From positions 1 through 64,000 of the forward strand of contig NZ_LEKH01000002.1 in the NCBI RefSeq assembly GCF_001029505.1: DNA of 64,000 nt, given 5' to 3'. This stretch comes from Rubrobacter aplysinae (GTDB lineage Bacteria; Actinomycetota; Rubrobacteria; Rubrobacterales; Rubrobacteraceae). The notes beneath the pieces are model-generated. The model worked only from the letters and a program-made list of their open reading frames with translations. It searched no databases and was not told the origin of the DNA. Of the stretch, positions 753-29,808 are shown piece after piece (the stretch's first letter is position 1; the number at the start of each line of letters is the position of its first letter). Position numbers and translations under genes: made by a program.

Positions 753-1080
753 TACGGTAGAACAAAAAAGCGAAGACGGGAACGAGTAGGGCGGCGGTAG
801 TCCGAACCAGCGAGCCGGGGGCGGTGGAAAGCCCGGCGCGGACCCCGCCCGAAGATCCTCCCCGAGCCGCCGGACCGAAAGCGGAGACGAGGCGCAGCTC
901 CTGTGCCTGTATCAGACGTAGAGTAGGTCTGGACGTAAGCGCCACGTTACGGCGGACGGGCGTCCGGCGCGCCCGAAAGAGGCCCGGCAGAGCCGGGCAA
1001 GCAGGGTGGTACCGCGAGGGCGTAGCCCCCGTCCCTGCGGCGGAGCGCAGTTCGGCTCCCCGCGGAGGCGGGGGCTTTTA
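753..1080 (+). promoter_or_regulatory. T-box riboswitch leader of ileS (tRNA-Ile specific)
   Basis: The conserved T-box sequence AGGGTGGTACCGCG is at 1003-1016. Upstream is a stem I region (about 791-875) whose arms GGCGGCGG and CCGCCGG can pair. The specifier context GAAG-ATC-CTCCCCGAG places an AUC (Ile) codon at 855-857. The variable base of the T-box bulge, T1010, complements the A discriminator of the tRNA-Ile(GAT) gene found at 29734-29808, so both tRNA contacts agree. Known T-boxes bind uncharged tRNA and switch expression of the downstream synthetase gene. Here the leader ends in a terminator-like hairpin, so transcriptional control is likely. Confidence 0.9.
1025..1080 (+). terminator. 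Conditional terminator of the ileS T-box
   Basis: GCCCCCGTCCCTGCGG at 1025-1040 can pair with CCGCGGAGGCGGGGGC at 1059-1074, followed by a short T-run (CTTTTA). The CGTCCC element typical of the 3' side of T-boxes is inside the left arm. Because the T-run is short, a role in hiding the ribosome site cannot be excluded, but the ileS start is 45 bases further on. Confidence 0.7.
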
Positions 1081-1124
1081 CACATTCGACGTACATATTC
1101 GACGCACTCGAACGGAGGACCACG

Positions 1125-4100
1125 ATGACTTTCGAGAAGGTACGGGCGCAGGTGGACTTCCCGGAGCTCGAGCAGGAGATGCTCGGGCTCTGGAATCGTA
1201 TAGGGGCTTTCGAGAAGTCCGTCGAGAACCGCCCAAAGGACAACCCGTTCGTGTTCTACGAGGGGCCGCCGACCGCCAACGGCCGCCCCGGATTCCACCA
1301 CGCGCTGGCGCGGGCCTTCAAGGACCTGATCCCCCGCTACAAGACCATGCAGGGCTACCGCGTGGAGCGCAAGGGCGGCTGGGACTGCCACGGCCTGCCC
1401 GTCGAGCTAGAGGTAGAGAAGGAGCTCGGGCTCTCCGGTAAGGACGAGATCGAGGGCTACGGCGTCGAGGAGTTCAACAAGCTCTGCAGAGACTCCGTGT
1501 TTCGCTACGTCGGCGAGTGGCGCCGCATGAGCGACCGGCTCGGCTTCTGGGCCAACATGGACGACGCCTACTGGACGCTGGAAAACTCCTACATGGAGAG
1601 CGTGTGGTGGTCGCTCAAGCGCCTGTACGAGCACGACCTCCTGTACGAGGGCTACAAGGTCACCGCGCACTGCCCGAGGGACCAGACCTCACTCTCCTCC
1701 GCCGAGGTCGCGATGGGCTACGAGGACGTAACCGACCCCAGCGTCTACGTCCGGCTACCGCTCGAAGACGACCCCGACACGAGCCTCCTAATCTGGACCA
1801 CGACGCCGTGGACGCTGGTCTCCAACACGGCCGCCGCTGCTCACCCCGGTATCGAGTACGCAACCGTCCGGGCCAACGGAGAGAAGCTCATCCTCGCCCG
1901 TGACCTGCTGGACGCGGTTATCGGAGAAGGTAATTACGAGGTGCTCGAAGAGCACACCGGCGAGGAGCTCGCGGGCAAGAAGTACCGCCGCCCGTTCGAC
2001 TACCTGCCCGTAGAGGACTCGGAAAACCTGTTTACCGTGGTGCTCGGTCCGCACGTCACCACCGCAGAGGGCACCGGGCTCGTCCACACGGCCCCGGCCT
2101 ACGGCGAGGACGACGCCAGGATGGGCCGCGTCTACGGCCTACCCACCCTGCACCCGGTAGAGAGCGACGGCACCTTCGACGGGCGCGTCGGAGAGTTTAC
2201 CGGGATATTCGTCAAGGACGCCGACCCCGGCCTCACCGAGGAGCTGCGCGAGAAGGGTGTGCTGTACCGCGCAGAGGACTACGAGCACGCCTACCCTCAC
2301 TGCTGGCGCTGCGGCACGCCCCTGCTCTACTACGCAAAGAAGGCCTGGTACGCCCGCACCACCGCCGTGCTCGACACGCTGCTGGAAGAGAACGAGAAGA
2401 TCGGCTGGGTCCCGGAGAACGTGAAGTGGGGCCGCTTCGGGGACTGGCTCAGGAACAACGTGGACTGGGCACTGTCACGGGAGCGGTACTGGGGCACGCC
2501 CTTGCCGGTGTGGCGCACCGAGTCCGGTGCGATCGTGGTAGTCGGTAGCGCCGGGGAGCTGCGGGAGCTGGCCATAGACCCGGTGCCGGACGACCTGCAC
2601 CGCCCGTACATAGACGACGTGCGCATCAGGCACCCCGAGACCGGCGAGGAGGCGCACCGGGTGCCCGAGGTCCTCGACGCCTGGTTCGACTCCGGCAGTA
2701 TGCCCTATGCCCAGTGGGGCTACCCCAACGAGGAAGGCTCCGAGGAGGAGCTTGCCCGCAGCTTCCCGGCGGACTACATCTGCGAGGCCGTGGATCAGAC
2801 GCGGGGCTGGTTCTACTCGCTGCTGGCGTGCTCGACGATGCTATTTGGAGAGAGCTCGTACAGGAACTGCCTGGTGCTCGGCCACGTCCTGGACCCCGAG
2901 GGCAAGAAGATGTCCAAGAGCCGGGGCAACGTGGTGGACCCGTGGGAGGTCTTCGAGCGTCACGGGGCCGACGCGCTGCGGTGGGCGCTGTACACCGCGA
3001 CGAGCCCCGGAAACCCGCGGAGGTTCAGCCAGGATCAGGTCGAGGAGGCGACCCGCAAGTACCTCCTGACCCTGTGGAACACGTACTCCTTCTTCGTCAC
3101 CTACGCCCGCATAGACGGCTTCGAGCCGGAGAAAGACTACATCCAGCCCGCCGAGCGCAGCCTCATGGACCGCTGGGCGCTCTCGGAATTGCAGCTCACC
3201 ATAGAGCGCGTCACCGAACGCATGGAAGAGTACGACGTTACCGCCGCCGGCCGGGCGATAGGCGAGTTCGTGGACGAGCTCTCCAACTGGTACGTCCGCC
3301 GCAGCCGCCGCCGTTTCTGGAAGGGCGAGGACGACACGGATAAAAAAGCCGCCCACTCGACGCTGTACGAGTGCCTGGTCGCCGTTACCAAGCTGACCGC
3401 GCCTTTCACCCCGTTCGTCGCCGAAGCGCTGTATCAGAACCTGGTGGTGAACGCGGAGAGCGGCGCGCCAGAGAGCGTGCACATGGCCGACTGGCCCCGG
3501 TTGGACGAGGGCCTCGTGGACCGGGAGCTCTCCGGGCGGATGGGTCACACCCGCCGGGTGGTTGCGCTCGGGCGGGCGGCGCGCAACGCGACCGCCATAA
3601 AGACCCGTCAGCCCCTGCCGGAGGTCGTGGTCGTACCCGGCGAGCGGGAGCCGGAGGGCTTCCAGGAGGGCGTGGAGAGCCTGGCCGAGATCGCGACCGA
3701 CGAGCTGAACGTCAAGCGCATCTCCTTCGGCGAGACCGGAGACGTTACGGCGTACGCGCTGAAGCCGAACCTCTCGGTCGTCGGGCCGAAGTACGGGAAG
3801 CTGGCGCCCGCGATCCGGTCATCGCTCGCCGACGCGCCGCCGGAAGAAGGCGCACGGGCCGCCGCCGGGGAGCCGGTTACGATAACCGCTGACGGAGGGA
3901 CGGTTACGCTCACGCCGGAGGAGCTGCTGGTAGAGCCGACAGAGCGCGAGGGCTACGCCCTGGAGCGCGAGGGGAGCCTGACGGTTGCGCTCGACACCCG
4001 GATGGACGAGAGGCTGGTGGACGAAGGGCTCGTGCGGGAGCTGGTACACGGTGTACAGAATCTGCGGCGCGACCGGGGGTTCGAGATCGAGGAGTCTATA

Positions 4101-4298
4101 TCGGTCAGGCTGTCGGGCAGCGAGCGGATGACCGGGCTGCTCTCCGATGAGTCCGGCGGCTGGGGAGAGTACTTCAAGGGAGAGGTGCTCGCCCGCGAGC
4201 TGAGCCTCGACGGCGAACGAGAGACTCCCTCCGTCGTTACGCACGAGCTGGAGATAGAGGGTGAGCCGGTGAGGGTGAGCCTCTCGCGGGTAGCGTAG
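1125..4298 (+). CDS. ileS: Isoleucyl-tRNA synthetase, type 2, with altered HIGH motif
   Basis: Charges tRNA-Ile with isoleucine in the cytoplasm. At 1057 residues it is long, in the range of the eukaryote-like IleRS2 group. The Rossmann fold begins near residue 40 with GPPTANG; the class I signature that should read HXGH is instead G56-F57-H58-H59. The KMSKS loop is intact at residues 595-599. The editing (CP1) domain lies between, with the zinc-ribbon-like CWRCG just before the tryptophan-rich LLYYAKKAW segment. The C-terminal third is the anticodon-binding region. ATG at 1125 has GGAGG about 8 bases upstream. It is preceded by its own T-box leader. IleRS2 enzymes are known for low mupirocin sensitivity. 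Identification is certain; the motif change is plain in the sequence. Confidence 0.97.
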   Translation: MTFEKVRAQVDFPELEQEMLGLWNRIGAFEKSVENRPKDNPFVFYEGPPTANGRPGFHHALARAFKDLIPRYKTMQGYRVERKGGWDCHGLPVELEVEKELGLSGKDEIEGYGVEEFNKLCRDSVFRYVGEWRRMSDRLGFWANMDDAYWTLENSYMESVWWSLKRLYEHDLLYEGYKVTAHCPRDQTSLSSAEVAMGYEDVTDPSVYVRLPLEDDPDTSLLIWTTTPWTLVSNTAAAAHPGIEYATVRANGEKLILARDLLDAVIGEGNYEVLEEHTGEELAGKKYRRPFDYLPVEDSENLFTVVLGPHVTTAEGTGLVHTAPAYGEDDARMGRVYGLPTLHPVESDGTFDGRVGEFTGIFVKDADPGLTEELREKGVLYRAEDYEHAYPHCWRCGTPLLYYAKKAWYARTTAVLDTLLEENEKIGWVPENVKWGRFGDWLRNNVDWALSRERYWGTPLPVWRTESGAIVVVGSAGELRELAIDPVPDDLHRPYIDDVRIRHPETGEEAHRVPEVLDAWFDSGSMPYAQWGYPNEEGSEEELARSFPADYICEAVDQTRGWFYSLLACSTMLFGESSYRNCLVLGHVLDPEGKKMSKSRGNVVDPWEVFERHGADALRWALYTATSPGNPRRFSQDQVEEATRKYLLTLWNTYSFFVTYARIDGFEPEKDYIQPAERSLMDRWALSELQLTIERVTERMEEYDVTAAGRAIGEFVDELSNWYVRRSRRRFWKGEDDTDKKAAHSTLYECLVAVTKLTAPFTPFVAEALYQNLVVNAESGAPESVHMADWPRLDEGLVDRELSGRMGHTRRVVALGRAARNATAIKTRQPLPEVVVVPGEREPEGFQEGVESLAEIATDELNVKRISFGETGDVTAYALKPNLSVVGPKYGKLAPAIRSSLADAPPEEGARAAAGEPVTITADGGTVTLTPEELLVEPTEREGYALEREGSLTVALDTRMDERLVDEGLVRELVHGVQNLRRDRGFEIEESISVRLSGSERMTGLLSDESGGWGEYFKGEVLARELSLDGERETPSVVTHELEIEGEPVRVSLSRVA

Positions 4299-29703: not shown

Positions 29704-29733
29704 AGGAGAACCGTGATGCGGGTGCTCGGAGGG

Positions 29734-29808
29734 TGGGCCTGCCTGGATTTGAACCAGGGACCTCCACTTTATCAGAGTGGCGCTCTAACCGAACTGAGCT
29801 ACAGGCCC
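29734..29808 (-). tRNA. tRNA-Ile (anticodon GAT)
   Basis: A 75-base cloverleaf on the minus strand: acceptor GGGCCTG/CAGGCCC, D arm TAGCTCAGTTCGGTTAGAGC, anticodon loop CTGATAA, T arm CTGGTTCAAATCCAG, discriminator A, CCA not encoded. Its anticodon and discriminator match the two tRNA-contact sites of the ileS T-box leader in this window. Confidence 0.97.

Follow-up and report, generated by a model that had tools for sequence, protein, structure and literature searches.

A GXHH-type signature, GFHH, in the predicted housekeeping isoleucyl-tRNA synthetase of Rubrobacter aplysinae and its family

The ileS gene of Rubrobacter aplysinae, located in the 64,000-nucleotide stretch of DNA analysed here (the window), encodes an isoleucyl-tRNA synthetase (IleRS) in which the HXGH signature of class I synthetases is replaced by Gly-Phe-His-His. 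In textbooks, this signature is given as HIGH. We consider it very likely that the enzyme is the sole, housekeeping IleRS of this bacterium, that it belongs to type 2 (IleRS2), and that it carries the known GXHH form of the motif, in which His58 would, by analogy, support catalysis and exclude mupirocin. The finding holds but is largely ordinary, because it concerns a described motif variant that is fixed in the family and resides in a housekeeping enzyme; the initial annotation had overstated its importance. The features are compiled in Table 1.

Table 1. Features of the ileS locus and the matching tRNA gene (positions in the window)
Feature	Position	Strand	Details
T-box leader (RF00230)	764..1039	+	74 bits (E 2.9e-16) over the full model, 1-219
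T-box specifier codon	855..857	+	AUC (Ile), after GAAG
T-box element AGGGTGGTACCGCG	1003..1016	+	predicted partner of the tRNA ACCA end: TGGT, 1007-1010
Terminator-like hairpin, then Ts	1024..1079	+	hairpin 1024-1076, -44.6 kcal/mol, z -5.9
GGAGG, likely Shine-Dalgarno of ileS	1114..1118	+	
ileS, type 2 IleRS	1125..4298	+	1057 aa; sole ileS found in the genome
Class I HXGH signature, in GXHH form	1290..1301	+	GGA TTC CAC CAC; Gly-Phe-His-His, residues 56-59
KMSKS signature	2907..2921	+	residues 595-599, intact
tRNA-Ile	29732..29808	-	anticodon GAU, matches the AUC specifier

Signature and type of the enzyme

With the ATG at 1125 as start of the frame, GGATTCCACCAC at positions 1290-1301 translates into G56-F57-H58-H59, which sits inside the segment FYEGPPTANGRPGFHHALARAFKD of the protein. 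In an alignment of 71 rows, comprising IleRS sequences and the ValRS-like frame of the same genome as outgroup, GFHH shares its columns with HLGH, HMGH and HYGH of canonical enzymes, and in the alignments with PDB entries it coincides with HVGH of P. megaterium IleRS2. A pattern scan of the whole 1057-residue protein revealed a single G/AxHH and no HxGH, HxGT or HxGN. Codons, frame and alignment thus agree with the initial annotation, which had described GFHH at the HXGH site with the first and third positions exchanged and KMSKS intact; the alignment with characterised IleRS2 enzymes that it had proposed leads to the same result. The protein therefore belongs to the G/AXHH group of IleRS2, in which G/A-X-H-H replaces HXGH and KMSKS is kept.

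The type 2 identity, already implied by the initial annotation, is assigned from the C-terminal domain and from the closest relatives. The TIGR00392 model for isoleucyl-tRNA synthetases matches with 945.8 bits (cut-off 621.4), and the domains detected are tRNA-synt_1, Anticodon_1 and a C-terminal DUF5915 (residues 855-1055). Among solved structures, P. megaterium IleRS2 (951-965 bits) and T. thermophilus IleRS2 (916 bits) come closest, and IleRS1 structures score far lower at approximately 383-405 bits (PmIleRS1 392, SaIleRS1 405); in the tree, the protein is separate from the IleRS1-like rows. The top PDB match, 8c8w, displays G-V-H-H at the motif and the next two entries below it H-V-G-H, which identifies 8c8w as the engineered GVHH mutant of P. 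megaterium IleRS2. This best solved relative aligns over residues 7-1002 with the motif in the same columns, although its motif is engineered whereas that of the Rubrobacter enzyme is natural. The overall combination of a type 2 enzyme, a swapped motif, an intact KMSKS and a housekeeping role resembles the non-canonical G/AXHH IleRS2 of S. griseus and D. radiodurans (PMC10485003). Unlike in the printed G/AXHH enzymes, the X position is Phe.

Mupirocin and the spread of the exchanged motif

G/AXHH was defined by Brkic et al. (Nat Commun 2023) as the mupirocin hyper-resistance form of IleRS2 (PMC10485003). Among 163 prokaryotic IleRS2, 86 carry G/AXHH and 77 HXGH, and none of the IleRS1 carries G/AXHH (PMC10485003). 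The initial description of HXGH as almost invariant thus fails for type 2 IleRS, in which the exchanged and the canonical form are about equally frequent. Converting the motif of DrIleRS2, TtIleRS2 and PmIleRS2 from one form to the other, in either direction, shifts the mupirocin Ki approximately 175- to 820-fold, at a modest to mild catalytic cost (PMC10485003). The Ki of the D. radiodurans enzyme (ALHH) falls from 6.6 mM to 8.1 µM with HVGH, and GVHH raises the Ki from 0.20 to 35 µM in T. thermophilus IleRS2 and from 1.08 to 460 µM in P. megaterium IleRS2 (PMC10485003). These experiments bear out the link between GXHH and very strong mupirocin resistance that the initial annotation had drawn. 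In the structures, the third His is located where the first His would otherwise be, and it clashes with mupirocin (PMC10485003).

By analogy with the GVHH mutant of P. megaterium IleRS2, His58 of the Rubrobacter enzyme would act at the transition state in place of the absent first His. In IleRS2 the tip of helix alpha-1 is shifted, which would give His58 space beside the adenine of ATP, and the bulk of this residue would sterically keep mupirocin out. Hyper-resistance, i.e. a very high Ki for mupirocin, is predicted on these grounds; its level is not readable from the motif alone, because the Ki extends from 35 µM in GVHH-TtIleRS2 to 6600 µM in DrIleRS2. The printed list for X contains Ile, Val, Leu, Met and Tyr, and Phe was not among the assayed enzymes (PMC10485003). 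Phe at X of the Rubrobacter enzyme falls outside this list, and other GXHH enzymes in our census and alignment carry Val, Ile, Leu, Ala, Thr or Ser. The occurrence of Phe, Ala, Thr and Ser suggests that the printed list reflects a sampling limit.

Compared with named relatives, the protein shares 79% identity with that of Rubrobacter sp. MGR_bin231 and 74% with that of R. taiwanensis, which indicates a placement inside or beside Rubrobacter. Our census covered 397 genomes of Actinomycetota: 186 contain the pattern PTANGxP[G/A]xHH and 50 the canonical PxANGxPHxGH, searched in slightly degenerate form, and none of these 50 belongs to the Rubrobacteraceae. PTANGxPGFHH was found in 35 genomes of the census, namely 34 of the 39 Rubrobacteraceae drawn and one genome of another family (f2). 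The remaining five Rubrobacteraceae genomes are incomplete and have either an IleRS match without its N-terminus or no IleRS match, and a further member of the family outside the drawn set (G025) also has GFHH. GFHH is therefore fixed in the Rubrobacteraceae, being present in every N-terminus recovered, and this family-wide conservation indicates that it is presumably functional. The rarity of the swapped motif that the initial annotation had implied does not hold for a form that is already in the literature, fixed in a family and found in nearly half of the genomes sampled from the phylum. One Rubrobacteraceae ileS match (L034, G007:C188) is reported with an internal TAG.

A FastTree phylogeny, computed with the motif columns removed and long branches flagged, served only to judge the grouping of the Rubrobacteraceae and the dispersal of GFHH, not the deep branching order. 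In it, the 34 rows from the Rubrobacteraceae fall into a single clade with a support of 100. A second GFHH outside the family occurs in a genome of family f7 (G056), where the slightly different context SANAPPGFHH explains why the pattern missed it, so that at least two cases exist outside the Rubrobacteraceae in Actinomycetota. GFHH requires three changes on the tree; among GXHH enzymes, Phe at X thus has more than one origin.

GXHH is also found in Gemmatimonadota and in a Latescibacterota MAG. This breadth, added to the frequency within Actinomycetota, spans lineages without obvious common exposure to mupirocin and fits a motif that arose or was kept for a reason other than the drug, such as drift in the permissive active site of IleRS2 or an adjustment of ATP use, with resistance as a by-product; the only mild catalytic cost points in the same direction (PMC10485003). 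We give this explanation a little less than an even chance, since the effect on drug binding itself is well demonstrated (PMC10485003). It addresses why the motif was selected rather than the identity of the protein, and it is thus compatible with a sole housekeeping IleRS2 of the GXHH form.

Further motif variants were observed among the relatives. Two genomes of one genus in family f26 (G186 and G273) each contain two full-length IleRS of approximately 39% identity, one with GVHH and one with HYGH: L126 (GVHH, + strand, frame from 1665) pairs with L127 (HYGH, - strand), and L128 (GVHH) with L129 (HYGH). A third genome of this genus (G263) has an HYGH pattern match only. These enzymes possibly represent a natural pair of swapped and canonical forms in one cell, or else contamination. 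In an IleRS-like protein of Candidatus Latescibacterota (L046, QNCW01000013.1), both signatures are altered, with GVHH and with EMHKS in place of KMSKS. The last residue of KMSKS is changed in some Actinomycetota GXHH enzymes, giving KMSKH in L056 and L051 and KMSKR in L123. HXGT, in which the fourth His is replaced by Thr (HAGT, HLGT, HHGT), occurs in L065 and L067, which are IleRS1-like, and in L044 (Saccharibacteria).

A single ileS and its T-box leader

The genome (3.19 Mb, 33 contigs, 98.94% complete) was searched with the IleRS protein and with TIGR00392, and ileS was the only full-strength match. The other hits are weak, with best scores of 103 and 131 bits, and lie in separate class I synthetase-like ORFs of 883, 916 and 493 residues, for which the names ValRS-like and LeuRS-like rest on weak matches and frame lengths. 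These searches found no second ileS in the 98.94%-complete genome, and an IleRS1 would have shown up, because IleRS1-like genes from elsewhere in the phylum score approximately 325-430 bits with the same query. The claim that this is the only IleRS, made initially for the window, thus extends to the whole genome. Being the sole ileS and preceded by an Ile-specific T-box, the gene is assigned as the housekeeping copy and not an accessory resistance copy, as had been proposed.

The MupA and MupB models do score 864 and 854.6 bits, as might be seen with an acquired mupirocin-resistance gene residing alongside a normal ileS, but MupA and MupB are also type 2 IleRS, which accounts for these values. 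Both scores stay far below the curated exception threshold of 1900 bits, whereas TIGR00392 passes its own; the genome has no second ileS, and the spread of the gene is vertical and family-wide within one clade. An acquired copy is hence highly improbable, and a MupA/MupB-type gene was ruled out by the sub-cut-off scores, the single copy and the clade. That GFHH is a sequencing or assembly error, or a misalignment that hides a true HXGH elsewhere, has next to no probability, because the same four residues recur in 35 Rubrobacteraceae genomes and the protein lacks HxGH.

The leader of ileS stays below the RF00230 gathering score of 93 bits and is consequently not picked up by a default scan. It is the only T-box match in the genome and combines an Ile specifier, appropriate for the downstream gene, with the element AGGGUGGNACCGCG; the tRNA-Ile (GAU) has A as discriminator base, as pairing with TGGT would require. 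From these elements we call it T-box-like, a probable GC-rich member under the curated score. This agrees with the tRNA-Ile T-box placed ahead of ileS by the initial annotation, and uncharged tRNA-Ile would control ileS through antitermination. The AUC specifier and the T-box element recur in most Rubrobacteraceae loci examined, among which L008, L020 and L037 gave no match for the T-box element.

A T-box with an Ile (AUC) specifier before ileS is also known from other Actinobacteria (Seliverstov et al. 2005, PMC1262725), and this was the only publication in the library searched that came up for Rubrobacter together with isoleucyl-tRNA synthetase. Whereas the actinobacterial ileS T-boxes hide the Shine-Dalgarno sequence (PMC1262725) and are described as translational (PMC1262725, PMC7583486), the terminator-like hairpin of Rubrobacter ends 37 bases 5' of GGAGG and excludes it. 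The Rubrobacteraceae leader therefore looks like the transcriptional (terminator) type. In family f19 genomes (6-10 Mb, GAHH), the 3' hairpin seems by eye to include GGAGG, which fits the translational ileS T-boxes of Actinobacteria (PMC1262725, PMC7583486).

Implications for the Rubrobacteraceae

GXHH has already been described (PMC10485003), so the Rubrobacter enzyme adds a member to a known kind, and the picture drawn by Brkic et al. (PMC10485003) stays unchanged. What looks new is Phe, and also Ala, Thr and Ser, at X, and a T-box of apparent terminator type that would not sequester the Shine-Dalgarno sequence. It is unlikely that GFHH constitutes a distinct family-fixed subclass in which the aromatic X alters ATP or drug binding and which is coupled to a transcription-terminating ileS T-box. 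A recently described change in a core catalytic motif, one linked to resistance, now extends to the whole family Rubrobacteraceae, and the X position of G/AXHH appears freer than printed. For Rubrobacter, an environmental genus, this predicts intrinsic high-level resistance to mupirocin.
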